A stretch of 25,117 bases of DNA from a virus. Both the position numbers and the translations under genes were made by a program. Under the pieces are notes generated by a model. That model worked only from the letters and a program-made list of their open reading frames with translations. It was not told where the DNA came from and searched no databases. Of this stretch, positions 9,631-23,305 are shown one piece after another. The stretch is taken from the IMG/VR virus record IMGVR_UViG_3300009705_000104, positions 1 to 25,117 of that record; one strand, given 5' to 3'. Positions within the stretch are counted from its first letter, which is position 1. Every line of letters starts with the position of its first letter.

Positions 9631-9653
9631 CTCTTATAGGCCGACAAAACTAA
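9631..9653 (-). promoter_or_regulatory. Putative phage RNA polymerase promoter P3
   Basis: On the minus strand: AGTTTTGTCGGCCTATAAGA. It contains the T7-like CTATA step in register. The expected start is near 9635 (A). It is the only copy in the large non-coding region and would drive the tail and ejection genes, giving a 5' leader of about 690 bases before the first start codon. Confidence 0.72.
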
Positions 9654-9669
9654 ATAGGCCCTTATAGAC

Positions 9670-9757
9670 ACACTTATAGGCACCATAAATAGCACTTAGG
9701 TAACACTTATATACACATTCATGTAACACTTATATTCAAATGTAGGTAACACTTTGG
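9670..9757. repeat. ACACTTATA iterons
   Basis: ACACTTATA occurs at 9670, 9703 and 9726, with a partial copy (ACACTTT) at 9749. The last three are spaced 23 bases apart and carry a GTAACACTT context. The surrounding stretch is AT-rich. Confidence 0.6.
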
Positions 9758-9821
9758 TACTGTACGGTCACCTATCGTTTAGACAATTACAGGTTGTTAG
9801 GAATAGACTAGGGAGTTGATG

Positions 9822-9895
9822 TCCGGGAGTAGTAGTTTGCACTCCTCGGTAGTCTGTTGTTACTACCACTCAAGGAGGCTTCTGTTGTTCCCGGA
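9822..9895 (-). repeat. Long stem-loop after the DUF3310 gene
   Basis: TCCGGGA (9822-9828) pairs with TCCCGGA (9889-9895). Inside them GAGTAGTAG-like and CTACCACTC-like segments can pair imperfectly. No T-run follows on the minus strand, so it is not a standard intrinsic terminator. It may be an RNA processing or pausing element. Confidence 0.45.
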
Positions 9896-9924
9896 TATCT
9901 TCTATTACCTACCTACCTTAGCCC

Positions 9925-10257
9925 TTAGATACTCAGTAGTCTCTCCAGGTACCACTTAGCTTTCAGTAGGTCCTCCTTACTCTTGTTACTCTTCTTACCT
10001 TCTCTCCATATATACTTGAGGCAATTAGCTTTGAGGAACCCACGGTACTCAGAGGGACTGAGTGCTGCCTTGATAGCATCTATGGTCTCTATGCTACCAC
10101 TGGTGTAGTGCCTAGGTGAGTTGACTAGGTCTTCTCTCTGTTCCTCCTCAGCCATCTGTGCATAGATTGCCTTGGTCTCTACAGCCTTGGCATTCTTAGC
10201 TGCTCTGTCCCAGTCTTCAGGCTTGGCATTATTGAGGCCGTACTTAGGCATCGTCAT
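9925..10257 (-). CDS. DUF3310 protein, related to part of T7 gp1.7
   Basis: This 110-residue protein has an N-terminal helix-rich extension (about 1-44) and a DUF3310 domain (about 45-110). The domain has VNSPRHYTSGSIETIDAI, then LKANCLKYIWREGKK and LLKAKWYLERLL. In T7 the related gp1.7 is reported as a nucleotide kinase, and many phages carry DUF3310 alone, so a nucleotide-metabolism role is possible but not established. It starts with GGGAGGG eight bases before ATG and closes the DNA metabolism operon, ahead of the large non-coding region. Confidence 0.85.
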   Translation of the reverse strand: MTMPKYGLNNAKPEDWDRAAKNAKAVETKAIYAQMAEEEQREDLVNSPRHYTSGSIETIDAIKAALSPSEYRGFLKANCLKYIWREGKKSNKSKEDLLKAKWYLERLLSI

Positions 10258-10364
10258 TTCTTATCCCTCCCACCGTCTTTCAATACTTGGAAACAATAGA
10301 CAGCCGTTGCTGTAATGAACAAGGTAAAGAATGTTGTCATAATAAAGTCTGTTAGTATCATCAT
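10254..10364 (-). CDS. Tiny single-span membrane protein
   Basis: This 36-residue protein has one hydrophobic stretch (about residues 3-25, with FIMTTFFTLFITATAVYCF) and a positively charged tail (LKDGGRDKK). The positive-inside rule would place the C-terminus in the cytoplasm. The ribosome site GGAGG lies eight bases upstream, and its stop overlaps the next gene's start (ATGA). Small membrane proteins in such positions can act on host membrane or polymerase functions, or as accessory holins; nothing here decides between these. Confidence 0.68.
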   Translation of the reverse strand: MMILTDFIMTTFFTLFITATAVYCFQVLKDGGRDKK

Positions 10365-10367
10365 CAG

Positions 10368-10541
10368 TCAGTCCTCCAGGTGTCTCATCATTTGAATTGT
10401 GTAGGCAGCGATAGCTCTATCCAGGGCACCAGTGGCTGAGATTAAAGACTCTTCCAGGGTTCTCTGAACTGCTCTTAGTGCATCAACCTGTTGACGTAGG
10501 TCCTCTATGTTGGGGGCTACTTCTTTAGCTTTTAAATCCAT
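10368..10541 (-). CDS. Short coiled-coil protein
   Basis: This 57-residue protein has heptad-like spacing (IEDLRQQVDALRAVQRTLEE) that suggests a dimeric coiled coil, then an Ala-rich helix (TGALDRAIAAYTIQMMRHLE). It starts inside the last codons of the preceding gene with AAGGAG nine bases upstream, and its end carries the GGAGG ribosome site of the next gene. Its function is unknown. The codon-level fit to its neighbours and the two good ribosome sites support it as a real gene. Confidence 0.7.
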   Translation of the reverse strand: MDLKAKEVAPNIEDLRQQVDALRAVQRTLEESLISATGALDRAIAAYTIQMMRHLED

Positions 10542-10723
10542 TGGGGGAATCTCCTTCCGTTATACCTGGCTCTATTGGCAGTACGTTCAGCTTGCTCACC
10601 AATATGATGTTTAGGTTTGTATTGGACACCGTCTTCCAGTCCTGCAAAGTAGTTGGTAGCGGTGGTTGTTTGTTCAGTGCAGTGTTTCTTCAGCTGCAGT
10701 GCTTCTCTCCACGTTAATTTCAT
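10532..10723 (-). CDS. Small basic protein of unknown function
   Basis: This 63-residue basic protein has KLTWREALQLKKHCTEQ followed by a tail rich in His, Arg and Asn (KPKHHIGEQAERTANRARYN). It overlaps the end of the preceding gene by about 50 bases. Two ATGs six codons apart are possible (10741 and 10723). Only the second has a GGAG, at a somewhat long distance of twelve bases. The stop codon overlaps the start of the next short gene. No family is recognised. Confidence 0.6.
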   Translation of the reverse strand: MKLTWREALQLKKHCTEQTTTATNYFAGLEDGVQYKPKHHIGEQAERTANRARYNGRRFPQWI

Positions 10724-10970
10724 TATTGAAGTATTCTCCATTATCTAGGTGGATGATGATTGGGGTCTCAGGACCCATGAATGCTCCGGCAATGTTGAAC
10801 CAGAAGAACTCATGGGCCTCGTCCATAGTCATGTTGTCGTTGGTGACCAGGTTGTCGATGATTAGGCCCATTGAATAGACCAGTACAGGGCTACCTTGGA
10901 TGTTGCAGGTGAGGCCCACGACTGCATTGTCATGACCCTCAATCTTTAGCATCAGGGTGTCTTCAGTCAT
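10674..10970 (-). CDS. Small phage protein with FNIAGAFMGPETP motif
   Basis: This 98-residue protein contains PVLVYSMGLIIDNLV, MTMDEAHEFFWFNIAGAFMG and PETPIIIHL. The pattern (aliphatic segment with Tyr, then EAxEFFxFNxxGAxxGxxTP) recurs in small hypothetical phage proteins; the function is unknown. The hydrophobic parts are amphipathic and not clear membrane spans. The start at 10970 overlaps the previous stop; a GTG four codons upstream is possible but has no better ribosome site. Tightly packed in the DNA metabolism operon. Confidence 0.75.
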   Translation of the reverse strand: MTEDTLMLKIEGHDNAVVGLTCNIQGSPVLVYSMGLIIDNLVTNDNMTMDEAHEFFWFNIAGAFMGPETPIIIHLDNGEYFNNEINVERSTAAEETLH

Positions 10971-11172
10971 CACAATTCTCACAGGTCATTAGCCGCCTCC
11001 ACTCCTCCTGGGTAACCCCTGTCATCAGATACTCCCGGTCCTCTGCACTCAGGTCTGGGAACACATTCTGTATTAACTCACCGTTAGCATGGCGTAGCAG
11101 TTGTTCCTGGGTGGCTTCAATCTCTCGTTGATGAGTGACACCAGTCAAGCTCGATACTTTAGTTACTTTCAT
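10963..11172 (-). CDS. Small conserved phage protein (GELIQ...FLMTGxT type)
   Basis: This 69-residue protein contains THQREIEATQEQL, NGELIQNVFPDLSAEDREYLMTGVTQEEW. The GELIQ-x-x-FP-x-LS ... E-(Y/F)-LMTG-x-T-xEEW pattern belongs to a small hypothetical family common in podoviruses, without known function. It ends in CENC plus acidic residues. The ATG at 11172 overlaps the exonuclease stop and has GGGAG nine bases upstream; the earlier ATG at 11217 lies inside the exonuclease gene. The stop overlaps the next start within ATGACTGA. Confidence 0.82.
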   Translation of the reverse strand: MKVTKVSSLTGVTHQREIEATQEQLLRHANGELIQNVFPDLSAEDREYLMTGVTQEEWRRLMTCENCDD

Positions 11173-11927
11173 CGTCCTGGCTCCCACATGTTGATGGTTT
11201 CTGTATCCCAGTTCCAATCGCAGCTCCGTAGTATCCTGGCGCAGCGACTCTGGACTATTGCATCCTCCCTGGTTAACCCGGCCTTAAGATAAGCCTGGTG
11301 TACCTGGTCCCAACTAGGATGATTGCCTAGTATTCCTTCAGCTTTCTTTGGACCTATACCCTTGATGCCGTCATAGCAATCGGTAGAGTCTCCAGTAAGA
11401 CATTGCGTTAGGAAGTAGTGGTTGGCATCAGCTTCAGATACTGTAAGCAGCTCGTCAGCCATAGGTCTGTACAGCTTCCCTGGTATTGTCTTCATGTCTT
11501 TATCGTCGGACACAATGCAAGTAGGGTGAGTGTTAGCTGACTGCAGGATACCCATGATGTCATCAGCTTCCAGGGTGTCCTGGATATGGCAGCTATAGGT
11601 CTCTTGAGCCCAACCTACCAGGTACTTATAACCGACTGGTTTCCTGGTCTTCTTACGGCCTCCTTTATAGGTAGGCAGCACAGTCTTTCTGAAGTTTTCA
11701 CCCACGGTAAACAGAACAATCATCTCCTGTGTATCAAGGCGTTCTTTGAAAGTCTCAAGACGGTTGTGGAACATCTTCTTGGCAGCACCTACATCACAGG
11801 TTAGGGACCATATGTCTGAGCCCCAGTCTGTCTCTTCTTCACATGCTGCAGCTGCTTGGTAGAGGTACAAATCACCATCGATGAGTAACGTGGTTTTATC
11901 TTTAGAGAAGCTCTTTAATACGTTCAT
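11169..11927 (-). CDS. 5'-3' exonuclease, T7 gp6-like
   Basis: This 252-residue FEN/RNase H-type nuclease removes RNA primers and degrades host DNA. Acidic metal-binding positions are visible: LLIDGDLYLY (Asp17, Asp19), LEADDIMGIL, and VSDDKDMKTIP. A helix-hairpin-helix-like stretch follows (CLTGDSTDCYDGIKGIGPKKAE). The C-terminus CARILRSCDWNWDTETINMW matches T7 gp6 closely. The start at 11927 has GGAGGG six bases upstream. An in-frame ATG at 11957 would add ten residues without a ribosome site. Its stop overlaps the next start (ATGA). Confidence 0.95.
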   Translation of the reverse strand: MNVLKSFSKDKTTLLIDGDLYLYQAAAACEEETDWGSDIWSLTCDVGAAKKMFHNRLETFKERLDTQEMIVLFTVGENFRKTVLPTYKGGRKKTRKPVGYKYLVGWAQETYSCHIQDTLEADDIMGILQSANTHPTCIVSDDKDMKTIPGKLYRPMADELLTVSEADANHYFLTQCLTGDSTDCYDGIKGIGPKKAEGILGNHPSWDQVHQAYLKAGLTREDAIVQSRCARILRSCDWNWDTETINMWEPGR

Positions 11928-12150
11928 CGATACCCTCCATAAACTCAATGCCATCATCAGTAATCAACCAACTCTTACCAAACATCTCGTAGTCAACCTC
12001 TGTTGTGATTAGACCGCTGCTTGCACAGACCGCTATGTACCAGGCAGCCTTACGAGCAAAGTTACTCTTCACAGTGAAGCCTTCCCTGAGTGCTTTATCT
12101 AACACTGTCCAGAAAGCTATGAGCTGTTCGATATCATTACTGAAGTCCAT
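11902..12150 (-). CDS. Small protein after DNA polymerase, unknown function
   Basis: This 82-residue protein starts four bases after the polymerase stop. It contains FARKAAWYIAVCASSGLIT and FGKSWLITDDGIEFM, a pattern of helix plus short strands that recalls small conserved phage proteins; no function is known to me. A longer reading from 12273 has a GAGGT ribosome site but would overlap the conserved end of DNA polymerase by about 120 bases, and its extra residues look like a shadow of that gene; the shorter start was preferred with moderate confidence. Its end overlaps the exonuclease start by 26 bases. Confidence 0.7.
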   Translation of the reverse strand: MDFSNDIEQLIAFWTVLDKALREGFTVKSNFARKAAWYIAVCASSGLITTEVDYEMFGKSWLITDDGIEFMEGIDERIKELL

Positions 12151-12154
12151 TGAC

Positions 12155-13948
12155 TCAGTGGGTATCGCACCAGGTTCTACCCACTGAATAGTCTGCTTCG
12201 ATGGGGAGTTTGTTTGAGATGCTGAAATGAGTTCCTGCTTCTTCTGCCATTCTTCTAAGTATGTCACCGACATTGTGTGCTACCTCTTTGGTTCTACAGG
12301 CAATCTGGAGTTCGTCGTGTACCCAAGCTACTATCAGGGCATCCTTCTCCAGGTTCTGTGCTTTAATCTCCTGGTCAACCAGGGCTAACCACTTCTTACA
12401 TAGAAGGGCTCCTGCTGACTGAAGTAATTGTGAAAGACATTTATGCTCTGACCTTACGAACAGCTTTCTGCCGTCCAAACCTTTGAGGTATCCGCGCTTA
12501 TATGCTTGTGAAAGTTCGTTCTTAAGAGACTTGAAACTAGGTATATTCTTATCGAACTCAGATTTAAGTCTCTTACCATCTTTAGCTGAGCCACCGACTA
12601 ACTTACCGATGAGTGCGTCACCTCCCCCATAGGTTGTGGCATAGATGAAGGTCTTCGCTGCATCCCTGGTAGGTAAACCTGCTGCCTTCTGGTTGTAGGT
12701 ATGAATGTCACCTTCCATGACTTGCGCCGCATACTCACCCCCATCATCAAGAAAGTAGGCTAAACACCTAAGCTCTAACTGAGATAAGTCACCACCACAG
12801 AGGTGCCATCCTTGGGGCACTGTGAATAGCTCTCTCATGGGTTTACCGTAGGCTGCCCTGGCTGAAACCGTCTGAGCCACGTTAGGTCCACGGTGTGCTG
12901 CCCTTCCTGAAATTGTTCCTCCAGAGATAATGGTATGACGGAGCTTACCGTCTGAATCCACCAACTTTAACCAGGCTTGACTACCCTCAGCTAACTGAGC
13001 AATCCTCTTCTGTACTAGCATGAACTTAGAGAGCTTCTTAGCTTCTGGGTATGGCAACTGAGCCAACACAGTCTCGTCTACCTTCGCATCACCACTGGGG
13101 GTGAATGACTTAGGTTTCCACCCATACTTCTTAACCAGGCAGTAATGAATATGCTTTCTACTGTTAGGGTTAAACTCTATAACCTGGACCTTCGTAAACA
13201 CCTCTCCTTTGACGTATCCACGACTCTTGTTGTTCACTTTAGGTACGAACTCAGTGTGTACTTCCCAGGGCTCAAACAGCTCAAAAAGCTCCTTCTCAAG
13301 AGCTATCCTGGTGGTTGCTAACTCGACGTATAAAGACTCTGCAGCCTTAACATCAAAGGTCCATCCATTGTTACCTACTCTGTAGCAAATCTCAGCTAAC
13401 TCATGCTCCAGGTCTAATGACTCCTGGGAGAAACCTTTAGCCATCTTCATAAGCTTCTTGTAAAGCTCATAGGTAACCGTTACGTCTTGCTTACAGTACT
13501 CAAGCATCTCCGGGTTACAGGTTTCCCAACCACCTTCATAGTCACCCTTCATGGTGCCCATTCTTAGGCCCCAGGCTTTAAGTGCATGACTACCAAACAT
13601 TCTGCGTTGGAAACCTTCAGGTAGTCCTAATGAGGTTGCATCATCGTTCCTCAAGTCAGCAGCAACTAAGCGGCTAATGACTAATGTGTCTGTCACTTTG
13701 CCTTTTGGATGCCAACCTGGGGATACCTTTTGTATTGCCGGGATGTCAAAACCAATGACGTTGTGACCAATGATTTCATCAGCTTCTGCAATGAGGTCCA
13801 GGGCTTCTTTGATGCCATCAGGACCGTGGTAAATCTTAAGAGCATTGACTCTTCTGTCTGCACATTTTGTATCGTATATCGCTATACAGTGAATAGTGTC
13901 TAGCTGATGCAACAGTCCATTACTCTCCAGGTCAAAGACCAGGCTCAT
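12155..13948 (-). CDS. DNA polymerase, family A, T7 gp5-like
   Basis: This 597-residue replicative polymerase (T7 gp5 has 704) combines a 3'-5' exonuclease and a polymerase domain. Exonuclease motifs: FDLESNG (Asp6, Glu8), HNVIGFD (Asp68) and YCKQDVTVTY (Asp155). Polymerase motif A is DLSQLELR (about 385-392), motif B is RDAAKTFIYATTYGGGD (about 428-444), with Tyr at the T7 Tyr526 position, and motif C is WVHDELQI (about 542-549). It ends in GRTWCDTH, like T7 GKNWAICH. The length difference lies mostly outside the catalytic motifs, perhaps in the thioredoxin-binding thumb insertion, which is not obvious here. The ribosome site GGAGAT lies in the preceding gene. Confidence 0.98.
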   Translation of the reverse strand: MSLVFDLESNGLLHQLDTIHCIAIYDTKCADRRVNALKIYHGPDGIKEALDLIAEADEIIGHNVIGFDIPAIQKVSPGWHPKGKVTDTLVISRLVAADLRNDDATSLGLPEGFQRRMFGSHALKAWGLRMGTMKGDYEGGWETCNPEMLEYCKQDVTVTYELYKKLMKMAKGFSQESLDLEHELAEICYRVGNNGWTFDVKAAESLYVELATTRIALEKELFELFEPWEVHTEFVPKVNNKSRGYVKGEVFTKVQVIEFNPNSRKHIHYCLVKKYGWKPKSFTPSGDAKVDETVLAQLPYPEAKKLSKFMLVQKRIAQLAEGSQAWLKLVDSDGKLRHTIISGGTISGRAAHRGPNVAQTVSARAAYGKPMRELFTVPQGWHLCGGDLSQLELRCLAYFLDDGGEYAAQVMEGDIHTYNQKAAGLPTRDAAKTFIYATTYGGGDALIGKLVGGSAKDGKRLKSEFDKNIPSFKSLKNELSQAYKRGYLKGLDGRKLFVRSEHKCLSQLLQSAGALLCKKWLALVDQEIKAQNLEKDALIVAWVHDELQIACRTKEVAHNVGDILRRMAEEAGTHFSISNKLPIEADYSVGRTWCDTH

Positions 13949-14196
13949 ACAGCCATCTCCATTTGTGAGACATAGTCATTGACCTTCTCACCTCCCAGAC
14001 TCCACCTACCGATAGTCGCTTTTTGACCCTTACGGTCTATGACCTGAATGTCGTGACGGACGATGTTGTGTCCTGCTTTCTTTAATGTGTATATACGAGC
14101 TGAAATCCTGGTGATACCCCAGAACTTAAATGCATCTAAACTTGTGATGCTGTTGCCTTCTTGTAAAAACGAAAGGACTTTAGCTTCTTGTGACAT
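13945..14196 (-). CDS. Small helix-turn-helix protein (HTH_39-like)
   Basis: This 83-residue protein has a winged-helix pattern: AKVLSFLQEGNSITSLDAF, FWGITRISARIYTLKKAG, then a strand-rich wing. The ITSLDA...GITR(I/L)xARIxxLKKxGH signature belongs to a phage/prophage helix-turn-helix family (Pfam HTH_39). It probably binds DNA, but whether as a regulator or replication accessory is unknown. The start at 14196 has AAGGAG eight bases upstream; an upstream in-frame ATG at 14247 would overlap the primase gene and lacks a ribosome site. The stop overlaps the DNA polymerase start (ATGA), so the two are coupled. Confidence 0.82.
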   Translation of the reverse strand: MSQEAKVLSFLQEGNSITSLDAFKFWGITRISARIYTLKKAGHNIVRHDIQVIDRKGQKATIGRWSLGGEKVNDYVSQMEMAV

Positions 14197-14218
14197 GGTG
14201 CTTCTCCTTGGTTCGATT

Positions 14219-15829
14219 TTAGAAGCGACTGTTACCGGAGTCGGCATCGATAAGCCTCCCGGTGTCGCGTTGATACTTTAAACGTCCTGCAAATCCGACC
14301 TGTCCAGTAAAACGGTTCTTTAAGACCACTAAATCACGGCAGTCATTGGTGGGGTCTTCAGCGTCAATCTGTAGCCCTAAACATTGGTCTGCTAGTTGTG
14401 CTATGGCGTGACTTCCTCTGAGCTGAGACAGCTCTACCTTGCCTCCTGCCTCATGTCCTTTGCCCTGGGGACGAGTCAAATGACTGACCAGGAACAACGT
14501 AATACCAAGCTCCTGGACCATCGTTCTTAGCCTGGTCATAGCGTCATCGATTAGCCTTCGTTCATCAGTGACCTTTCCGGTCATGGAACTAATAACAAGT
14601 GACAAATGATCTAGAAACAGATGGGTGCAGCCCATAGCTTTTGCCATGTACTGGATGCGGTTAATGACTACGTCCAAGTTCATCATCCCTTTGGAATAAA
14701 AGAGCTGAATGTCCTGGTGTTTAAACAGCTCGTCGTGAGCTTCTAAGACCTCTTCTTTTGTGGCAGCCTCATAGTCCTGGACGATGTTCTTGTTGAGGTG
14801 AAGGCCAATTAGACCCCTCACAGTACGCTTGTTTTCTTCTTCCAACATGAGCATCCCAACCTTCTGACCATGTGTATGTAAGTGGTAAGCAATCTCAGTA
14901 ACTAAGGTTGATTTACCGACACCACTCCCGGCACATATTGTGACCAGGGTGGAAGAACGGATGCCTCTAGTGAGTTCGTTGAGCTTTGAATAGGGGTAGG
15001 TAATCGTGGAGTGTTCGTCAGTCTCTGTGACTCTGCTGCGGAGGTCTGTTGTGGAAACAATACCATCAGGTCTCCAGTCTTTAGCCCTCCATATTGCATT
15101 GACTATCTCTGCCTCAGCTCCTGCCATGAGAGCCTCGTTAGCGTCTTTGTAACCACTAAGCTTAGCTATCTTACATTTGCCAATAGGAAGGCTCTCGGCA
15201 CAGTCTAATGCAGCCGATGTACCGGCCTCATCTCCATCAAATAGAAGGATAAGCTCATCGAATCCACTGAGGTAGTCCCAGGCATTCATAAGGGCTTTCT
15301 TAGCTGATTGAGCGCCATTTTGGACTGACACTACAGGCCATTTGTTCTGTTGAGCCTGGGACGCTGAGAGGCAGTCTAAGGCCCCTTCTGTAATGACTAA
15401 TTTCTTACCAGTGGTCCATAGATGTTGACCAAAGAGACCCATCTTCTTAGTCTCTCCCAGGGCAAGGAAATTCTTATCTTTGTCCCTGGTCTTCTGAGCA
15501 ACAATCTCACCGAACTCATTACGATAGTTCTCAATCTGTACTGGAATTCCCAGGTACTCTCCAATCTGGTAGTCAAACTTACGACAAGTGTCTTCTCGTA
15601 TTCCTCTGGCAACCAATGCAGCGTAGTGTCCCTGGATTAAATCTTTGTGTAGCTTCTTAGGCTTACTGGCTGCAGTTTCCTCAGCAGCGTCATCACCTGG
15701 TGTATAGACCTGGCACCCAAAACAAAAAGTGTGGTTATCACTGAACAAGCCACAGTTGTCTTTACTACCGCATTCAGTACACGGTGTATGCATTACGAAT
15801 TCTGAGTTATTGTGTGTATCTAATAACAT
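14219..15829 (-). CDS. Bifunctional primase-helicase, T7 gp4-like
   Basis: This 536-residue protein makes RNA primers and unwinds DNA as a ring helicase at the fork. The N-terminal zinc ribbon has Cys17, Cys20, Cys36 and Cys39 (CTEC...CFGC). The Toprim primase domain follows, with VITEGALDCL (about 148-157) and LLFDGDEAG (about 196-204). The DnaB-like helicase domain has Walker A GSGVGKST (about 302-309), the Walker B-like HLFLDHLSLV, VSHLTRP and LRGSHAIAQLAD. T7 gp4 has 566 residues. The start at 15829 has GAGGGG seven bases upstream; an ATG five codons earlier lacks one. The gene is followed after 22 bases by the small HTH gene and then DNA polymerase. Confidence 0.97.
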   Translation of the reverse strand: MLLDTHNNSEFVMHTPCTECGSKDNCGLFSDNHTFCFGCQVYTPGDDAAEETAASKPKKLHKDLIQGHYAALVARGIREDTCRKFDYQIGEYLGIPVQIENYRNEFGEIVAQKTRDKDKNFLALGETKKMGLFGQHLWTTGKKLVITEGALDCLSASQAQQNKWPVVSVQNGAQSAKKALMNAWDYLSGFDELILLFDGDEAGTSAALDCAESLPIGKCKIAKLSGYKDANEALMAGAEAEIVNAIWRAKDWRPDGIVSTTDLRSRVTETDEHSTITYPYSKLNELTRGIRSSTLVTICAGSGVGKSTLVTEIAYHLHTHGQKVGMLMLEEENKRTVRGLIGLHLNKNIVQDYEAATKEEVLEAHDELFKHQDIQLFYSKGMMNLDVVINRIQYMAKAMGCTHLFLDHLSLVISSMTGKVTDERRLIDDAMTRLRTMVQELGITLFLVSHLTRPQGKGHEAGGKVELSQLRGSHAIAQLADQCLGLQIDAEDPTNDCRDLVVLKNRFTGQVGFAGRLKYQRDTGRLIDADSGNSRF

Positions 15830-15846
15830 TTGCTTTCCCCTCAACC

Positions 15847-15876
15847 AAAAAAAGGGGACCCTTTCGGGCCCCCTTA
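15847..15876 (-). terminator. Strong hairpin with T-run between endonuclease and primase-helicase
   Basis: On the minus strand GGGGGCCC-GAAA-GGGTCCCC forms an 8-bp stem with one G-T pair and a GAAA loop, then seven T. It sits only 18 bases before the primase ATG, so like copies A and B it stands directly before a ribosome site. It would lower expression of the downstream genes or mark an RNA processing point. Confidence 0.8.
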
Positions 15877-15889
15877 GCTCTCCTTACGA

Positions 15890-16829: not shown

Positions 16830-16992
16830 TGTTGGGTTTCTCCTTACTGTTGGTATTTAAGTTTTCTTTAGGGGGTTTACTCGACAAGGTGATTCCAAGT
16901 CGAGCTGCTTCTTCAATCAGTCTTGGTGGATATGCAGCGCCTTTGTTATCTAGCAGACGAGCAAGTCCCAAGACCCTTTCTCTGGGATGCAT
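16822..16992 (-). CDS. Short protein between RNA polymerase and ssDNA-binding protein
   Basis: This 56-residue open frame has clear protein-like composition: a basic N-terminus (MHPRERVLGLARLLDNKG), a helix-rich centre (PPRLIEEAARLGITLS) and a Lys/Asn/Pro tail. It begins at an ATG with GGAG nine bases upstream, directly after promoter P5, and its stop lies inside the start of the next gene (ATGGGTAA), so it is coupled to it. The two short helices around residues 8-35 could form a DNA- or protein-binding unit, but no family is recognised. By position it resembles the small T7 genes between 1 and 2.5; T7 gp2 similarity is not evident. Confidence 0.68.
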   Translation of the reverse strand: MHPRERVLGLARLLDNKGAAYPPRLIEEAARLGITLSSKPPKENLNTNSKEKPNNG

Positions 16993-17012
16993 CGATTGTT
17001 ACTCCATTGATA

Positions 17013-17036
17013 CTATCTAAGGGTGGACAGAACTAG
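17013..17036 (-). promoter_or_regulatory. Putative phage RNA polymerase promoter P5
   Basis: On the minus strand: AGTTCTGTCCACCCTTAGAT. It overlaps the stop codon of the RNA polymerase gene. The expected start is the G at about 17017, 25 bases before the next ATG. It would drive the DNA metabolism genes. Confidence 0.72.
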
Positions 17037-19654
17037 CTAAAGCAGTATTCAGACTCCAGGACCTTCGTGATATCCAGGTTACCTTTCTCTGGTACCTTCA
17101 TATCAAGACGCTCAAGTCCTGCATAGCTCAGCTGTTTTGCTACCTGGGACTTAAAGTCACTAAACAAGCAATAGTCCTGGTAGATATTGACGAACGACCT
17201 TCGCACTGTCTCGTACATGATGTCTGTATCTGCAGGGGTCGTTCCAAACGAGTCGTGGATTAAAAAGAAGTCCTTAACACCATTAGCTTTGGCGTTAAGG
17301 ACAGTCAGTAAGAGGTGCGCTGAGTCCATTGAATGAATGATATTAGGAGCGACAGAGCTTTTACTTTTCTTCTTGTCGACAAAGCTTTTACCGTTGTTAG
17401 TTTTGGCTTCACTAGGGACCCTGAAGTTTATTTGGGTTCGCTTCTGAACTCCGGCAACCCTGTCAAACATGTATATCTTGACTTTCTTTATGTCCCAAAA
17501 GGTGTACTTCTGGACCAGGGGGAAACCCACTGGATTGTCAAAACGTAAGTGCTTTCCTTCGTGTGCCAAAACGCCTACTGCAGCCTGAAAGAACTTCATC
17601 CCTACAGAGGCACTACGGATGACCTGCTTCACAGCGGTGTAGTTAATGTCTGCCAGGAATCGTGCTGCTGCCTCTTGTTCAAACTTGGTCTTTCCAAAAG
17701 GATGTTCTTCAAGGTTGCCCCTCATGACCTGGTCAGCAAGTGGCTTCATGAAGTCATCATAGAGCTGAGTACCAAACCCATATTTACAACTACTGTATCC
17801 AAAGGTCATGGTGTTACGTTTGACAGTGTAGCGAGTAATTCCTAGCTTTAACCAGGCGGCTGCATAAACAAGCGTTTGGTCAATTATAAGATTACCTTCC
17901 TTGCTGATATGGTCCTTGGGTACATAGGTGTCCAGTACCTCTTCAACCATCGTCTTAGTCACCGCTGCAACCTCCCCATAAACATCCTGGGGCTTTGGTG
18001 AAGGGACCAGGTTAACCAGGCGGCCATCGTCTTCATTGAGAGATGCTGCAGCGTAATGTTGCACTCCGCTATTGGTTCCATCAAGATTTGGCGCTAGTCC
18101 ACACTCATAAGCATCACCATAGTCCATGTAGTTGGCAAACTCATGACAGGCTGCCAGGAACTGGAAAGGTTTATCAGCTTTGGACCAGATACGATATGTT
18201 CCCTGGTAGTCTCTCCCAATGGCATAGATAAGCATCTTCTTTCTTTCTACCCAGGCAGCTCTATCTTCCAAAGACTTCTTAGACACTTTGCCAAAGTCAC
18301 CAGTGTTGGCAACATGGACCGCCAACCAGAAGGCCGCATTATCATCCATCGGCTTAGCATTCTTTAGGAGGAAGAGGGCTTTAATATGGTCATCCCTGTG
18401 ATATGAAAAGTGGGGGACACAATAGGCTCTCCCTCGAAAATCTAGATTCCAGGGTAAGAAAAACTCATCAAAGCCAGTCATCTCATCAGCCGTACTCAGG
18501 TCCTGGTTCATGAGGTTTCGGCCACCCCCTATCTCACGGTTCTTTGCCCTAATCTTGTTGTTACTAAAAGACCACGTTTTCTGCTCATCAGGGGTGAGGT
18601 CACTAAAGTTCTTAGGCTTCATGACATAGGGCATATTGTCTTTCTGAGGGAACTTATCAATAGGCTGAGCTGCTAGTCCTTGGTCTTCATAACCACCGTG
18701 CCAGGTCCACTTGACTGCGTCTAAGACATAGTTATTAACTTGTAGCGGAGTAGCCTGGATAGCATTGAGAGCCTCCATGTACTGTGGTAACTCTTCAGAT
18801 TTATCTATTTGGTGTTGGATAGCTTTACGCTGTACATAGGTAGACCCACGAACCAGTGGAACCTGGGCTGCAGTCACCATGTCCTGATAGCAGCCTGTGT
18901 TCACTGCAGTCCACGGTCTTGGTGGGACAACCATTGGAGCTAACATAGGCTCCTTCCAAGCAGCCTCAAAGTCCATGTCTGCAAGAAGCTGTGAAGCCTC
19001 TTCCGTTAGACCTATCATCTTGGTTGTTTGCTTCTTTGTTGTCTTGGTCCACTCATCAAAGATGTCACTAAACTCTAAGACAACACTTAGGACTTTACCT
19101 CCAACCTTACACTGCTTAGGACCATCCCAAGAGTCACGCTTGTATCCTTGGTTCTCTGCCAATTTCTTAGCGGCCCTAATCTTGTAGTACTCGACACCCT
19201 GCTCTTTGACACTCTTGTGATTTTCAATACGTTGGGCAAGCTTTGAGTCTTGGTGCTTCAGACCTGCAGCCCAGTCTTCTAGCTCAATACGGTGGCCTAT
19301 AGTATTTACGACTGAGGTCCTAGCGCCTCCGATTGAAGTGCCATCTATGCAGGCGTTTAGTCCTATGTAGGCTAAAAGGTCAGGGTCCATACCTTTCAGG
19401 ATTGAATAAGCAAAATGCTTTCTTCCGTCACCTTTAGCTTCTTCCTGGGCAATGAATTCTCTTATGCCACTTGAGACTCTAGGTAAAGCTCCTGATACTA
19501 ACTTGTGTGGGTTGTTTTGAGTGGATTGCTTAGTGTTCTTTGCGACTCGTTCCATGAACCTTTCATTACCTTTGTCGAACATTTGCTGCTCTCGTAGGAG
19601 TTCTTGAGTCATTAGGTCTTCATTGATTTTAATAGTCTGCTGTATCATGGTCAT
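17033..19654 (-). CDS. T7-like single-subunit DNA-directed RNA polymerase
   Basis: This 873-residue protein is near the length of T7 gp1 (883). It transcribes the phage middle and late genes. Landmarks in order: LDFRGRAY (about residue 405); LDGTNSGVQHYAA with the first catalytic Asp (about 525; T7 Asp537); KRNTMTFGYSS with the catalytic Lys and Tyr (about 608-617; T7 Lys631 and Tyr639); APNIIHSMDSAH; HDSFGTTPAD with the second catalytic Asp (about 800; T7 Asp812); and a C-terminus LESEYCFS like T7 SDFAFA. The specificity-loop region before APNIIHS is longer and unlike T7, consistent with a different promoter. The start has GAGGG five bases upstream and follows putative promoter P1. It is transcribed away from the integrase operon, behind its terminator. 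Confidence 0.98.
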   Translation of the reverse strand: MTMIQQTIKINEDLMTQELLREQQMFDKGNERFMERVAKNTKQSTQNNPHKLVSGALPRVSSGIREFIAQEEAKGDGRKHFAYSILKGMDPDLLAYIGLNACIDGTSIGGARTSVVNTIGHRIELEDWAAGLKHQDSKLAQRIENHKSVKEQGVEYYKIRAAKKLAENQGYKRDSWDGPKQCKVGGKVLSVVLEFSDIFDEWTKTTKKQTTKMIGLTEEASQLLADMDFEAAWKEPMLAPMVVPPRPWTAVNTGCYQDMVTAAQVPLVRGSTYVQRKAIQHQIDKSEELPQYMEALNAIQATPLQVNNYVLDAVKWTWHGGYEDQGLAAQPIDKFPQKDNMPYVMKPKNFSDLTPDEQKTWSFSNNKIRAKNREIGGGRNLMNQDLSTADEMTGFDEFFLPWNLDFRGRAYCVPHFSYHRDDHIKALFLLKNAKPMDDNAAFWLAVHVANTGDFGKVSKKSLEDRAAWVERKKMLIYAIGRDYQGTYRIWSKADKPFQFLAACHEFANYMDYGDAYECGLAPNLDGTNSGVQHYAAASLNEDDGRLVNLVPSPKPQDVYGEVAAVTKTMVEEVLDTYVPKDHISKEGNLIIDQTLVYAAAWLKLGITRYTVKRNTMTFGYSSCKYGFGTQLYDDFMKPLADQVMRGNLEEHPFGKTKFEQEAAARFLADINYTAVKQVIRSASVGMKFFQAAVGVLAHEGKHLRFDNPVGFPLVQKYTFWDIKKVKIYMFDRVAGVQKRTQINFRVPSEAKTNNGKSFVDKKKSKSSVAPNIIHSMDSAHLLLTVLNAKANGVKDFFLIHDSFGTTPADTDIMYETVRRSFVNIYQDYCLFSDFKSQVAKQLSYAGLERLDMKVPEKGNLDITKVLESEYCFS

Positions 19655-19669
19655 CTGTCCCTCGTGTTT

Positions 19670-19692
19670 TATCTAAAGGCCGACAAAACTGT
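19670..19692 (-). promoter_or_regulatory. Putative phage RNA polymerase promoter P1
   Basis: On the minus strand: AGTTTTGTCGGCCTTTAGAT. The expected start is the G at about 19673, giving a 19-base leader before the polymerase ATG. The polymerase would thus read its own gene. TGTC-x-x-CC-x-TTAG aligns in register with the T7 promoter steps GAC, CTATAG. Confidence 0.75.
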
Positions 19693-19795
19693 TTTTATTC
19701 TTTTTGACACTCTCTTAAACCTAGTCCATCTTCTATTCAGAAGCAACTAGCTAGGAGTATAAAAGTGAGTACATTTTCTAAGTCATTGTTTTTGT

Positions 19796-19825
19796 TATAT
19801 ATCCTTAAAGACTAGACATAGACAA
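19796..19825 (-). promoter_or_regulatory. Possible host sigma-70 promoter for the RNA polymerase gene
   Basis: On the minus strand TTGTCT is followed after 18 bases by TATATA, in an AT-rich stretch between the integrase terminator and the polymerase gene. A host promoter is needed to make the first polymerase molecules. This one is the best match seen there, but it is unproven. Confidence 0.38.
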
Positions 19826-19842
19826 TTTAGCTATATATACAG

Positions 19843-19870
19843 GCAAAAAAAAGCCTCCACGAAGGAGGCT
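19843..19870 (-). terminator. Intrinsic terminator after the integrase operon
   Basis: On the minus strand AGCCTCC-TTCGT-GGAGGCT forms a 7-bp perfect stem and is followed by eight T. It closes the integrase transcription unit before the RNA polymerase promoter region. Confidence 0.85.
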
Positions 19871-19888
19871 ATAGTTTCTTAGCTATGG

Positions 19889-20074
19889 TTAATGCAAATT
19901 CCTGGACCTACGTTCTTCCAGTTCAGTCATATCAAAGCAGTCAGTGGCTAATCCTAAAGCCATTTCAAACTGCATAGGAAGTTCGCTGCAGGAGTGTCCT
20001 GTGTCCAGGACCTTAGCTTCAATGCAGCCACAAGGCTCTAAAATGTTTCCGTTATCGTCATAGTTTCTCATCAT
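19889..20074 (-). CDS. Small Cys-containing protein coupled to the integrase
   Basis: This 61-residue acidic protein has Cys at the start (EPCGCIEA), in the middle (HSCSEL) and later (TDCFDM). Its start overlaps the integrase stop (ATGA) with AGAGGG upstream, so it should be made with integrase. It is followed by a strong terminator. It does not look like a basic winged-helix excisionase, and no function is recognised. The cysteines could bind a metal, which is speculative. Confidence 0.65.
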   Translation of the reverse strand: MMRNYDDNGNILEPCGCIEAKVLDTGHSCSELPMQFEMALGLATDCFDMTELEERRSRNLH

Positions 20075-20916
20075 GCTGCCCTCTTTTCTAGTTTAGACAT
20101 TATGGTAGCCAGGTTTTCTTTCTTGGCATGGACGTACTTCTTCGTCGTAGCAATAGACTTGTGACCTAGGATGGTACCCACGATTAGTGTGTCCACGCTG
20201 AACTCCATTGCTAACCTGGTTGCACAGGTGTGTCGCAGCACATGGAATACAAAATGGTCATCACCAGGTGCTAGACACTCCTTGGCTGCCTTCCAAGTAT
20301 CATAGAACTTACGGTTAGTCCAAGGTCCTGAAGGACAGTTGTCCAGGTTACGCAGCGCCTCCTTTGCTGAGGCGTTCATCGGCACCGTGCGTTCTGAGCC
20401 GTTCTTGGTGTTCTTGAGGTCGATATAGCTACCGCAGGGGCTAATGGTGCCAATTGTTTTCTTGGGCTTAGGATGGTTGATAGACAGTATCTCGCCTAAC
20501 CGCATTCCGGTGTTCAGCGCAAAGATGACAAAGTCAGCCATCCAAGGGTGGTCTGAGTCCAGGAAGAACTCAACCAAATCATCCACTTCCTGGTCCGTGT
20601 AGAACCTTGGTCTCCCAGGTTCAATGGCCTTCCACTCTACCTTGGGGGTGTAGCTCATCAGCTTCTTATTCACAGCCTTCTTAAACAGGCGGCTATAGGC
20701 TGCCAGGTACCTGTTGACGGTGGAGTCAGATAGGCCCTCTTCTTTCAAATAGTCCATGAAGTCATAGAGGTCATCGTCGGTGTAGCTGCCGATTGCTCTC
20801 GTTCGGTTGTTCGCAAAGTTACTTAGGCGGTTGACCATAAAGTTACAGTCTTTTAAATACTTGTCGTGCCAAAGTCGCTTTCCGTACTTATCAAAAAATG
20901 TTTCTAAAGTTTCCAT
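20071..20916 (-). CDS. int: Tyrosine recombinase / phage integrase
   Basis: This 281-residue site-specific recombinase would catalyse phage integration at the tRNA gene represented by attP at 22647-22696. A SAM-like core-binding domain (about 15-95) with STVNRYLAAYSRLFKKAV is followed by the catalytic domain. The catalytic set is complete: Arg139 (NTGMRLGEI), Lys171, His225-x-x-Arg228 (FHVLRHT), His252 (LGHKS) and nucleophile Tyr261. The chosen ATG at 20916 has GAGGGAAACACA upstream. An in-frame start at 20997 would add 27 residues encoded by a terminator hairpin and is rejected. It lies about 1.7 kb from attP, farther than usual, with four small genes between. Its stop overlaps the next gene as ATGA. 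No excisionase is recognised nearby. Confidence 0.93.
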   Translation of the reverse strand: METLETFFDKYGKRLWHDKYLKDCNFMVNRLSNFANNRTRAIGSYTDDDLYDFMDYLKEEGLSDSTVNRYLAAYSRLFKKAVNKKLMSYTPKVEWKAIEPGRPRFYTDQEVDDLVEFFLDSDHPWMADFVIFALNTGMRLGEILSINHPKPKKTIGTISPCGSYIDLKNTKNGSERTVPMNASAKEALRNLDNCPSGPWTNRKFYDTWKAAKECLAPGDDHFVFHVLRHTCATRLAMEFSVDTLIVGTILGHKSIATTKKYVHAKKENLATIMSKLEKRAA

Positions 20917-20961
20917 TGTGTTTCCCTCATTTTCAGTGACAGCATCAAGGCTGCCTAAAAG

Positions 20962-20987
20962 TAAAAAGGCCCCTACAAAGGAGCCTC
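20962..20987 (-). terminator. Hairpin/T-run before the integrase gene (copy C)
   Basis: On the minus strand AGGCTCC-TTTGTA-GGGGCCT is followed by TTTTTAC. The stem is the same as copies A and B with a different loop. It lies about 50 bases ahead of the integrase ATG. A longer reading of the integrase gene (from 20997) would run through this hairpin, which argues against that start. Confidence 0.65.
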
Positions 20988-21002
20988 GTTTAGTCAATCG
21001 GT

Positions 21003-21278
21003 TTAGTACTGCTCAGATTCCTTTATTGCTCTTATTTCCACATAAGAAGCCATGTCCTTTTCTACTTCTCCCCAAGTCATTAGGCAGCCTGAGTCATCAG
21101 TAACATAGTCTTTCCACTCACTATCTGAGTAGCACTCAACAAAAAAGTCATAACCCTTGTCATAGTTTGCTTCGGCAAAAGCCTTAGCCTTATTGATAAC
21201 AACATCCCATCGCTTTACTCTGGCTTCGAGCAGTATTTGTTCCATTTGAACAATGTCTGTATAAAGTTTAAAGGTCAT
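21003..21278 (-). CDS. Small early-region protein of unknown function
   Basis: This 91-residue protein is acidic and aromatic-rich (YDKGYDFFVECYSDSEW, and WGEVEKDMASYVEI) with no membrane segment or known motif. It begins at an ATG with GAGGGACACATT, a leader duplicated from the 22461 gene together with its hairpin. The integrase gene follows after a further hairpin. Its family is not recognised. Position and the shared regulatory cassette place it with the other early accessory genes. Confidence 0.7.
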   Translation of the reverse strand: MTFKLYTDIVQMEQILLEARVKRWDVVINKAKAFAEANYDKGYDFFVECYSDSEWKDYVTDDSGCLMTWGEVEKDMASYVEIRAIKESEQY

Positions 21279-21290
21279 AATGTGTCCCTC

Positions 21291-21315
21291 AAAAAGAAGG
21301 CCCCTTTCGGAGCCT
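21291..21315 (-). terminator. Hairpin/T-run leader before the 21278 gene (copy B)
   Basis: It holds the same 18-base hairpin (stem AGGCTCC/GGGGCCT, loop GAAA) as copy A at 22481-22498, followed by TTCTTTTT and the same GAGGGACACATT leader. It terminates or attenuates transcripts leaving the 21324 gene just before the next ATG. Confidence 0.65.
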
Positions 21316-21323
21316 CATGTTGG

Positions 21324-21917
21324 TTAATGCCCATAACCCCAGGCAGTTTGATACTCAGGTTTACCATCGAAAGGGTAGGCATTGGCAAAGCTTTCAACTT
21401 TAAACCCACCATGCTGATTAACACGCTTGGTCATCACCTCGCCAATCTCACAGGCAACATCGGGCAGTAGATAGTCACTGCCCTGGTCACTGTGGTCTAC
21501 CAGGGAGCCAACCTTAATCACATCAAGCATCTGTCCTCTCTTAGCGACACACTTGTAAAAGTCGACATTGGTTTGGTCATAGCCCCAACTGCTACTGAAG
21601 ACATCCCCAACCTGTACAGTATCTGCTGCTTCAGCCTTGGCAGCCTTATCTTTGGCAGCCCTGGCCTCCTTAGCCTCTGTGTTGGCTTTGACGTTCTCAA
21701 AGATGTCCTGGGTCCACTCTTCCCTACGTTCCTCAGTACGGAAGCAAAGGTGCTTGCTTGGCTTCTTAGATTTACCAATGAAGATTATCGCTGCAGGTGT
21801 ACTAGAGTCTAGGTCATAGTAGTAAGCAACAGCATTAACTCCTTCCGGACTTACCGTTGTAGCATTAGAAGGAATGTAAAAGTCACGAGTCAGTTCTCTT
21901 TTCAATAGAGTGTTCAT
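21324..21917 (-). CDS. Early-region protein with SSWGYDQTNVDFY motif
   Basis: This 197-residue protein appears to be in two parts. The N-terminal part (about 1-85) has PAAIIFIGKSKKPSKH and a charged segment. A Lys/Ala/Glu-rich linker (about 83-100) leads to a C-terminal part with VGDVFSSSWGYDQTNVDFY. That motif recurs, to my recollection, in a hypothetical family of plasmids and phages that often sits beside proteins like its two upstream neighbours. It is translationally coupled to the 21914-22147 gene (ATGA overlap, GGAGGTG seven bases before ATG). The function is unknown. The linker suggests two separately folding units. Confidence 0.78.
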   Translation of the reverse strand: MNTLLKRELTRDFYIPSNATTVSPEGVNAVAYYYDLDSSTPAAIIFIGKSKKPSKHLCFRTEERREEWTQDIFENVKANTEAKEARAAKDKAAKAEAADTVQVGDVFSSSWGYDQTNVDFYKCVAKRGQMLDVIKVGSLVDHSDQGSDYLLPDVACEIGEVMTKRVNQHGGFKVESFANAYPFDGKPEYQTAWGYGH

Positions 21918-22147
21918 GCTGCCACCTCCTGGAACCCTTGTTCCTGTAAAACCGTCCTAACATGCTCACGGTCCATACTGTCGCCCTCGAAAGTTAACTC
22001 AGGCCACTTTAAAATCCTCACAGTAGTAGCATGGGCAATGTCAGCCCTGGTTGCTCCCAGGTCATAGATACCTCCTGGACCGTAGAAGCTATAAACGTAA
22101 TTAATAAAGTCTTGTACTACTTGGTTACCAATATTAAGTATTCTCAT
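21914..22147 (-). CDS. Small early-region protein of unknown function
   Basis: This 77-residue protein contains FYGPGGIYDLGAT and, near its end, FEGDSMDREHVRTVL. This pairing resembles small hypothetical proteins recalled from plasmids and phages (from memory, not a search). The fold is predicted globular and cytoplasmic. ATG is preceded by TGAGGGAAACATT, the recurrent leader of this region, here without a hairpin. The stop overlaps the next start as ATGA, and the end of the gene carries the GGAGGTG ribosome site of that gene, so the two are coupled. No function can be assigned. Confidence 0.72.
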   Translation of the reverse strand: MRILNIGNQVVQDFINYVYSFYGPGGIYDLGATRADIAHATTVRILKWPELTFEGDSMDREHVRTVLQEQGFQEVAA

Positions 22148-22170
22148 AATGTTTCCCTCATTAATGATTG

Positions 22171-22461
22171 TTAAGCGCGAAAGGCCATCAAGGTGCCTGC
22201 ATCGTAGGGCTCTAAATGGAAGCCGTACCTGGTGACCAGGGCCTCAAGTTTTGGGTGATACCTAGGAGAAAACTCTTCCCAGTAATTAAACAGAGGCGCT
22301 CCATCAGGGGCTTCTCCACCCTCCTGCCTAAACCAGATACCGTCCTGGCTAACCTTGTTGTCACCGTTCCATTGGTCATAAGTAACTGCATTGCACTCAG
22401 GAAAAGCTGCGTTAAGTTTTTTACAAAGGGTCGCTGCCCTGGTATTCGTAGTCTTAGTCAT
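22171..22461 (-). CDS. Small early-region protein, YDAGT family-like
   Basis: This is a 96-residue protein of unknown function. It has no membrane segment. The aromatic-rich middle (LFNYWEEF) and the C-terminus YDAGTLMAF resemble a group of short hypothetical proteins recalled from phages and conjugative plasmids; this is memory of the family, not a search result. The start uses GAGGGACACATT ahead of ATG, the same leader as the 21278 gene. It is the first gene after promoter P2 and its hairpin, so it should be among the early products. A host-takeover or anti-defence role would fit the position but is not shown. Confidence 0.75.
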   Translation of the reverse strand: MTKTTNTRAATLCKKLNAAFPECNAVTYDQWNGDNKVSQDGIWFRQEGGEAPDGAPLFNYWEEFSPRYHPKLEALVTRYGFHLEPYDAGTLMAFRA

Positions 22462-22474
22462 AATGTGTCCCTCA

Positions 22475-22498
22475 CAAAAAAGGCCCCTTTCGGAGCCT
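22475..22498 (-). terminator. Hairpin/T-run leader before the 22461 gene (copy A)
   Basis: On the minus strand AGGCTCC-GAAA-GGGGCCT forms a 7-bp stem with a GAAA tetraloop and is followed by T residues. The Shine-Dalgarno leader GAGGGACACATT and the ATG come next. The 18-base hairpin is identical to that at 21298-21315. It may be a terminator, an attenuator just after P2, or an RNA-stabilising 5' hairpin. Confidence 0.65.
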
Positions 22499-22514
22499 GG
22501 TTGATATAAGTGTG

Positions 22515-22537
22515 TATCTAAAGGCCGACAAAACGTC
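22515..22537 (-). promoter_or_regulatory. Putative phage RNA polymerase promoter P2
   Basis: On the minus strand: CGTTTTGTCGGCCTTTAGAT. It is identical to P1 over the 17 bases from TTTTGTC to TTAGATA. The expected start is the G at about 22518. It serves the early gene cluster beginning at 22461, but a hairpin with a T-run stands between. Confidence 0.75.
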
Positions 22538-22543
22538 TACCCA

Positions 22544-22566
22544 CAAAAAAAGACCCGGAGGTCTTT
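22544..22566 (-). terminator. Intrinsic terminator upstream of promoter P2
   Basis: On the minus strand the stem AAGACC / GGTCTT with a four-base loop is followed directly by a run of T. It would stop transcripts arriving from P4 or from the lysis region before P2 restarts transcription. Confidence 0.7.
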
Positions 22567-22590
22567 GGTACGTCGATTGGTTCAGGTTTT

Positions 22591-22620
22591 GTCTATTGCC
22601 TTTACGCATGTAGAAACTAT
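22591..22620 (+). repeat. Left arm inverted repeat of attP
   Basis: This is the partner of the right arm repeat at 22717-22746, in opposite orientation on the other side of the tRNA-like core. A further GTCGATTG copy at 22572-22579 lies 19 bases outside the GTCTATTG of this repeat, mirroring the 20-base spacing on the right. The arrangement is two sites per arm, facing each other. Confidence 0.7.
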
Positions 22621-22646
22621 TGCACTGCTTGTCACCTCAGAGGGCG

Positions 22647-22696
22647 CTCGACTCATAATCGATCGGTCGTAGGTTCAAGTCCTACTGGGCCCACCA
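22647..22696 (+). other. attP: attP core: 3' half of a CAU-anticodon tRNA gene (tRNA-Ile2-like)
   Basis: The plus strand carries an anticodon arm (loop CTCATAA, anticodon CAT), a five-base variable loop, a full T arm (GTAGG, TTCAAGT, CCTAC), the 3' acceptor strand TGGGCCC, discriminator A and CCA. No matching 5' half (GGGCCCA plus D arm) lies upstream, so this is a fragment and not a working tRNA. Such 3' tRNA halves are the usual crossover site of tyrosine integrases and rebuild the host tRNA on integration. The sequence resembles E. coli tRNA-Ile2 more than elongator Met. The outermost anticodon-stem pair is mismatched (C-T), so identity with the host gene may begin just inside it. Confidence 0.85.
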
Positions 22697-22716
22697 TTTT
22701 TAGAGTCTTTTTAGCT

Positions 22717-22746
22717 ATAGTTTCTACACTAAAAAAGGCAATCGAC
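22717..22746 (-). repeat. Right arm inverted repeat of attP
   Basis: These 30 bases are the reverse complement of the left arm at 22591-22620 with 24 of 30 positions matching. Shared parts are ATTGCCTTT and GTAGAAACTAT, separated by six bases in both. A further CAATCGACTATT copy lies at 22759-22770, twenty bases beyond the one inside this repeat (22739-22750). Paired inverted sites flanking a core are the pattern expected of arm-type binding sites of a tyrosine integrase. Confidence 0.7.
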
Positions 22747-22917
22747 TATTAGTAAAGTCAATCGACTATTCGTGTAGAAGCCTTCACCTATCGATTACCG
22801 CATGATAGTTCAGGGCCCTTACCTTGGTCTCTCCACCGCAGTGGGCCAAGAGGCTATTGTCTGGATTGCCTTGGGGAGCCACCCCTGCAGTTAATAAAAG
22901 GTACTAACTACATTTAT

Positions 22918-22947
22918 AGTATCGCACAGGAGTATGACGGTTGTCTA
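22918..22947 (-). promoter_or_regulatory. Possible host sigma-70-type promoter
   Basis: On the minus strand a TAGACA box is followed after 18 bases by GATACT. Both boxes are only partial matches to TTGACA and TATAAT. It is listed because an early region must first be read by host RNA polymerase and this lies just upstream of that region. The evidence is weak. Confidence 0.22.
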
Positions 22948-22951
22948 CACT

Positions 22952-22975
22952 TTGTATATAGGTGGACAAAACTGA
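22952..22975 (-). promoter_or_regulatory. Putative phage RNA polymerase promoter P4
   Basis: On the minus strand: CAGTTTTGTCCACCTATATA. The first eleven bases, AGTTTTGTC with flanks, match P1 and P3, while the CCACC core matches P5 and P6. The expected start is near 22956, where the base is T, unlike the G of four other copies. Transcription would run across the attP region toward the early genes. Confidence 0.65.
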
Positions 22976-23071
22976 AAAAACATCAGTCACTTATAGTCGA
23001 CCGATGTGCCCATAAGGGCTGAGGGGCTACGGTCTCAGGGGATAAAGACCGCTGCCAGGGAGAGGGACACC

Positions 23072-23251
23072 CTATAAAGGGGGCTTTGGACAGGGACATT
23101 CATGGTTTCTACCAGGGTTTTCAGTCTCCCAGTAGTTTCCACAGTGTTCACATTTCTTGTATTGAGTCTTAGGTTTGCCAAAGATGGCATCAAAGTTGGA
23201 TTCGAATTGTTCCCGGTTCGGGATAGGTCGGGGAGTGCTGCCTTTCGACAT
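23072..23251 (-). CDS. Small phage protein with MSKGS-type N-terminus and a zinc-ribbon-like C-terminus
   Basis: This is a 59-residue protein of unknown function. Its first half (MSKGSTPRPIPNREQF, then FGK) resembles a short protein recurrent in tailed phages. The second half has paired cysteines: CEHC at 34-37, then His50, Cys52 and Cys54, suggesting one zinc site. An ATG four codons earlier is available, but the internal ATG at 23251 is preceded by an almost ideal GGAGGTG six to ten bases upstream, and that Shine-Dalgarno would itself lie inside the longer form, so the shorter form was chosen. It is the only gene between promoter P6 and the attP region. Zinc binding is inference from Cys spacing. 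Confidence 0.72.
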   Translation of the reverse strand: MSKGSTPRPIPNREQFESNFDAIFGKPKTQYKKCEHCGNYWETENPGRNHECPCPKPPL

Positions 23252-23282
23252 AGACACCTCCATTTTGGGTGGGTTTGGTTCT

Positions 23283-23305
23283 TCTTAGGGTGGACACTTT
23301 TACTT
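23283..23305 (-). promoter_or_regulatory. Putative phage RNA polymerase promoter P6
   Basis: On the minus strand this reads AAAAGTGTCCACCCTAAGAA. It shares TGTCCACCC and the following A/T-rich step with P5, and a G falls at the expected start base (about 23284). It overlaps the holin stop and lies 33 bases before the next start codon. It is the weakest of the six copies in its upstream half (AAAAG instead of AGTTT). Confidence 0.55.

Follow-up and report, generated by a model that had tools for sequence, protein, structure and literature searches.

A predicted promoter set of new specificity for a T7-type RNA polymerase from an uncultured marine phage clade

The promoter of the cyanophage Syn5 RNA polymerase (RNAP) is ATTGGGCACCCGTAA, with a G at +1 (PMC3950665). 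In the T7 enzyme, R756 and Q758 read promoter positions -9 and -8, and N748 contacts positions -10 and -11 (PMC5937735). Phage promoters have also been mapped in the Pseudomonas phage LUZ100, which is T7-like and carries an integrase (PMC10134795). The lytic/lysogenic control of integrase-bearing T7-like phages is poorly understood. Here, we analyzed a virus record of 25,117 bases (the window), a contig representing a fragment of a genome with T7-like replication genes, in which the minus strand bears all assigned genes. The window, which belongs to an uncultured marine clade, encodes a T7-type RNAP and very likely its promoters, a set with new specificity.

Six motif copies and the polymerase encoded in the window

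The features on which the analysis is based are as follows, with promoter copies numbered by position (the initial annotation had numbered them differently).

17033..19654, minus strand: T7-type single-subunit RNAP, 873 aa (Pfam RNA_pol, 259 bits; phrog_414, 610 bits)
20071..20916, minus strand: tyrosine integrase (Pfam Phage_integrase, 73 bits; phrog_1)
9633..9650, minus strand: predicted promoter P1, GG form, T of TGTC at 9646, predicted +1 G at 9633; precedes a ~700-nt non-coding leader, then virion genes
17016..17033, minus strand: predicted promoter P2, CA form, T of TGTC at 17029, predicted +1 A at 17016; touches the RNAP stop codon and precedes the SSB/replication block
19672..19689, minus strand: predicted promoter P3, GG form, T of TGTC at 19685, predicted +1 A at 19672; immediately 5' of the RNAP gene
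22517..22534, minus strand: predicted promoter P4, GG form, T of TGTC at 22530, predicted +1 A at 22517; precedes the early/integrase block
22566-22549, minus strand: terminator-like hairpin, with P4 coming right after
22955..22972, minus strand: predicted promoter P5, CA form, T of TGTC at 22968, divergent start region TATAT-A, predicted +1 A at 22955; precedes the structured RNA and attP
23283..23300, minus strand: predicted promoter P6, CA form, T of TGTC at 23296, predicted +1 A at 23283; weak in sequence, supported by synteny; precedes a 59-aa ORF

The RNAP is intact, with the counterparts of the T7 catalytic residues D537, K631, Y639 and D812 all there. Its specificity loop is longer than that of T7 and carries K/K/R/Q at the positions of T7 R746/N748/R756/Q758, in agreement with the initial annotation, which had described this region as unlike T7. 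Identity to the RNAPs of cultured phages is ~30% for the best matches listed. No close DNA match to the window was found among GenBank phages, and a search for a host or prophage, using a profile of the RNAP alignment on genome contigs, returned distant relatives only (25-34% identity) and assigned no host.

The six minus-strand copies of TGTC-NN-CC, with GG in three and CA in three, are all present where they had originally been reported. Likewise, all of them point with the genes and lie either between genes (P1, P3, P4 and P5) or touching stop codons (P2 and P6). That each precedes a functional unit stands for five copies; P5 precedes no gene, but rather a structured non-coding stretch and attP. 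The bare 8-mer TGTCNNCC has 23 matches on both strands relative to 13.0 +/- 3.3 expected, a mild enrichment that is weak alone. When the window was searched on both strands with a weight matrix for the extended motif, the only sites above the cut were the six minus-strand copies, with none on the other strand. Scored with a floored matrix, five copies reach 26-32, whereas in 100 randomised windows the mean best score was 16.5 and the maximum 24.2. P6 scores 17.3, which is at chance level by sequence alone; it was accepted as a copy because at least 10 relatives have a copy at the same place. The motif spans ~17-20 bp, is non-palindromic and recurs between genes in a single orientation.

Of 79 distinct promoters, 76 have a purine 13 nt downstream of the T of TGTC. 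This base is the best candidate for +1, and it also corresponds to the mapped register of the Syn5 promoter. The register proposed originally, by alignment with T7, is one base off for most copies (e.g., P3) relative to this purine-conserved +1 and to Syn5. The RNAP would read the TGTC-NN-CC core at -13 to -6 and start at the purine 13 nt after the first T. The start region differs with position: P1 copies have GAGA or GAGT in all cases, P5 copies have TATAT-A, TTAGT-A or CTTAT-(A/C), and most other copies have TTAG-A. Two positional classes do exist, in the start regions of the P1 (9.6-kb) and P5 (22.97-kb) copies.

Several further elements were observed in the window. Iteron-like repeats (TATAAGTGTTACCT and variants), possibly an origin, lie at 9655-9750 on the minus strand, just upstream of P1. 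A block in the P1 leader (9046-9177, minus strand; 15902-16033 in the relative L002) is conserved in five relatives and includes an invariant TTGTTGTTGTTGTTGTC run and GATTCYAGGGACTCC. Two near-identical 42-bp copies (95%) at 22457-22498 and 21274-21315 on the minus strand each combine a terminator-like hairpin with a ribosome-binding site before an early gene. The 59-aa ORF behind P6 (23075-23251, minus strand) has a zinc-finger-like arrangement (CEHC ... HECPCP), and its DNA is conserved in L002 and L008. A late protein of 1076 aa (142-3372, minus strand) has a zeta-toxin-like kinase match over residues 926-1009 (E = 1.7e-8).

The motif and the specificity loop across related lineages

Scans of IMG/VR gave more than 100 related loci, and in 41 distinct uncultured lineages the RNAP gene has TGTC-NN-CC in front of it. 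For a motif-free comparison, the 140 nt before and the 450 nt after each RNAP gene were searched in 69 distinct lineages for a matching 20-mer pair (16/20 or better). Such a pair brackets the RNAP gene in 45 of the 69, relative to one of 69 in a control with the downstream stretch reverse-complemented. In the inner clade the bracketing pair is built on TGTCCACC; outside it, the sequence shifts gradually to GTGTACACCC, TATACACCC, TGTGACCC and GGGACCCCC. Copies also recur at the same places as in the window, and motif position is conserved in relatives whose polymerases are 35-63% identical. The order of the six window copies is repeated in one relative (L027), which also has six; another contig (L001), 99.9% identical, ends just past P1. 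Around P1, the same 34-nt sequence is found in three contigs that are 83-93% identical there. The 39-kb contig L002 (RNAP 63% identical) has five copies, all of GT form, at the P6, P5, P3, P2 and P1 places; it has no counterpart of P4, and no motif score in its remaining 21 kb exceeds chance. The rest of that contig (L085 11210-18170) encodes portal, scaffold and major head proteins matching phrog_1216, phrog_9013 and phrog_1328, as well as a terminase (phrog_2); the genome is possibly a hybrid. The mild enrichment of the bare 8-mer and the chance-level score of P6 alone would suit a set of chance repeats, the least probable account of all those weighed here; it is refuted for the five copies that beat all 100 randomised windows, also by the 20-mer bracketing, and the conserved positions stand against it as well.

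The motif also changes together with the polymerase. Among the 41 lineages with TGTC-NN-CC before the RNAP gene, the residue equivalent to T7 N748 is Lys in 40 and Val in one (L002), whereas among lineages without the motif it is Arg in 17, Lys in five and another residue in two (Fisher 6e-11, ignoring relatedness). The five Lys lineages without the motif mean that residue 748 alone does not determine the motif. A lineage nested in the inner clade (L141) has switched both, with Arg at the 748-equivalent and GGTGACCC as its promoter sequence, and resembles separate KRWQ lineages with TGTGACCC. The promoter positions that differ most are -10/-11, and the Lys that stands in for T7 N748 is the probable reader of TGTC. 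Covariation of the motif with the specificity loop is thus a correlation, with relatedness ignored. More than 60 distinct polymerases, the majority of which can be paired with a promoter, form a natural series within which recognition appears to have switched more than once, so that the evolution of single-subunit RNAP specificity becomes directly testable.

These comparisons bear on two other functions for the motif. Operators bound by a phage repressor or another DNA-binding protein could take the form of short intergenic repeats close to an integrase, but the motif sites are non-palindromic and in a single orientation, have a constant purine start at a fixed distance, and change along with the specificity loop, which makes operators very improbable. 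Action at the RNA level, as leader or processing elements, would be in keeping with the several copies found in leaders or touching stop codons; we regard it as slightly less probable still, given that conservation stops just after +1, that an inverted repeat is absent and that motif and polymerase loop diverge together. The original proposal that the six motifs are promoters for the encoded T7-type RNAP is upheld by strong comparative evidence, namely the relatives, the bracketing pairs and the loop correlation, and we consider it highly probable. From the sequence, we infer transcription from each motif and the unit that it drives: P3 would let the RNAP amplify its own gene, P2 would drive the replication block, P1 the virion genes via the leader, P4 the early/integrase block and P6 the small ORF, while P5 and a host sigma70-like promoter, in tandem, would drive the structured RNA beside attP.

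The meaning first given to GG and CA, as two promoter subclasses encoding different strength or timing, did not hold up. Both forms occur in the window, the variable bases fall at -9/-8, the positions read by R756 and Q758 in T7 (PMC5937735), and three close relatives retain GG at P1. However, CA is the clade-wide form, found in nearly all relatives on the RNAP tree and there at every copy in most of them, at the same positions where L002 has GT everywhere. The other forms are scattered by lineage, as GG/CA (window), GT (L002), GA/TA (L003), GA/CA (L015) and TG/CA (L019), and the positions of GG, GT, GA, TA and TG are not kept across relatives; within the window, GG and CA do not separate early copies from late ones. 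A code for strength or timing is therefore unlikely, and was rejected as a reading of these forms. GG versus CA would instead be lineage variation tolerated by one enzyme, which would use both forms. Val and Ser occupy the 748 and 758 positions in a single lineage of the tree, L002, which has GT throughout.

A structured RNA and a candidate attP downstream of P5

In the P5 neighbourhood of these T7-like phages, which carry an integrase, a conserved and previously undescribed RNA lies at the attachment site.

22980..23007, minus strand: terminator-like hairpin with a T run, immediately upstream of P5; same layout in relatives
22918..22947, minus strand: sigma70-like promoter (TAGACA - 18 - GATACT), downstream of P5 at a constant spacing
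22810..22885, minus strand: conserved structured RNA, core (covariance model match, 93.9 bits)
22634..22694, plus strand: candidate attP, the 3' part of a tRNA-Met(CAU) (sub-threshold tRNA match)

The order in the inner clade is P5, the sigma70-like site, a conserved RNA stretch of ~100 nt and a tRNA-derived attP, and P5 is preceded by a T run in the relatives shown. In 12 of 13 relatives the sigma70-like -35 starts 20-22 nt from the TGTC of P5, and the summed score of the site is 114 relative to 94.1 +/- 2.8 (maximum 102) in shuffles. At the attP place, L008, L015 and L027 have a full tRNA-Met; the attP tRNA of relatives is tRNA-Met or tRNA-Leu (ARAGORN), with a Phe-like tRNA in L003 (by eye). 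Three outer relatives (L024, L036 and L059) keep P5, the sigma70-like site and attP without the RNA.

The whole RNA stretch (22780-22911, minus strand, in the window) is found at 3650-3722 in L002, at 1946-2021 in L016 and at other loci, the covariance model locating the RNA in ~20 related loci. Its structure was drawn by eye from eight of these sequences and then guided the alignment, so that the paired percentage is biased toward the drawn structure and two-sided changes are the safer measure. Such changes occur in eight of 13 pairs of the core, relative to 0/500 in shuffles and 0-2 in slid controls, and at one helix position the G-U pairs are compatible solely with the strand transcribed from P5. 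Free-energy folding of the core was no better than for shuffles (z about 0.3 to 0.5), so the support for the RNA comes from covariation; RNAalifold found little in a first rough alignment. In Rfam, the core had no match up to E = 1, with sub-threshold matches only over the tRNA-like attP. A loop pseudoknot (GGCU with AGCC), with one two-sided change and two broken cells, is suggestive at most. A terminator-like hairpin between the RNA and attP (22764-22739) is not kept with its T run in all relatives, and nothing was drawn from it.

In T7, phiOL lies near the host early promoters, and P5 sits where T7 has phiOL. Because attP lies between them, integration would separate the P5 unit from the int and RNAP genes. 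We tentatively propose, as a possibility that we hold to be somewhat doubtful, that a conserved decision point lies in the P5 region: a phage-RNAP promoter placed on a host sigma70 promoter would drive the new RNA, integration would cut the polymerase gene off from early host transcription, and the lytic/lysogenic choice would be regulated by the RNA in cis (e.g., by antitermination) or in trans.

Comparison with described promoters and polymerases

A literature search for TGTCCACC with phage and promoter, of incomplete coverage, gave only unrelated work among the papers listed. The T7 promoter (TAATACGACTCACTATAG) is of the same size and, as in the window, occurs in multiple coding-strand copies; the polymerases share fold family and catalytic residues, and outer relatives of the window show CCTATAGG. 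The T7 core GACTCACTATAG is not found in the window copies, whose core is TGTC-NN-CC; the specificity loop differs as well, the RNAPs are 27% identical, and the window phage, in contrast to T7, has an integrase and a motif copy directly upstream of the RNAP gene. LUZ100 shares the latter arrangement, with a phage promoter immediately before its RNAP gene and again immediately after it, and with integrase and tRNA adjoining, but differs in its promoter (ATTACCACACAG-), in R/D in the loop, in a MarR regulator beside the integrase, and in an RNAP only 28% identical. The Roseobacter phages CRP-361 and CRP-125 have the closest cultured DNA polymerases (45%), and their RNAP is bracketed by a matching pair (TAGGTTGCACC-) as in the window; motif and loop differ, and the RNAPs are 26% identical.

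With Syn5, the CA form shares CACC(C) at -9 to -6(-5), i.e., C-9 A-8 C-7 C-6; this is all that the window has in common with the sequence GGGCACCCGTAA at -12 to -1, and only in the CA copies, the CACC core being absent from the GG copies. A G at -12, an A/T-rich -4 to -1 and the purine start are also shared, whereas Syn5 has TGGG where the window copies have TGTC at -13 to -10, and its RNAP is only 24% identical. The motif had been called new, which is apt for its specificity class but not for the CACC(C) core in this register. Thus, the window motif very likely represents a new specificity class of T7-type RNAP promoters, closest in register to that of Syn5.
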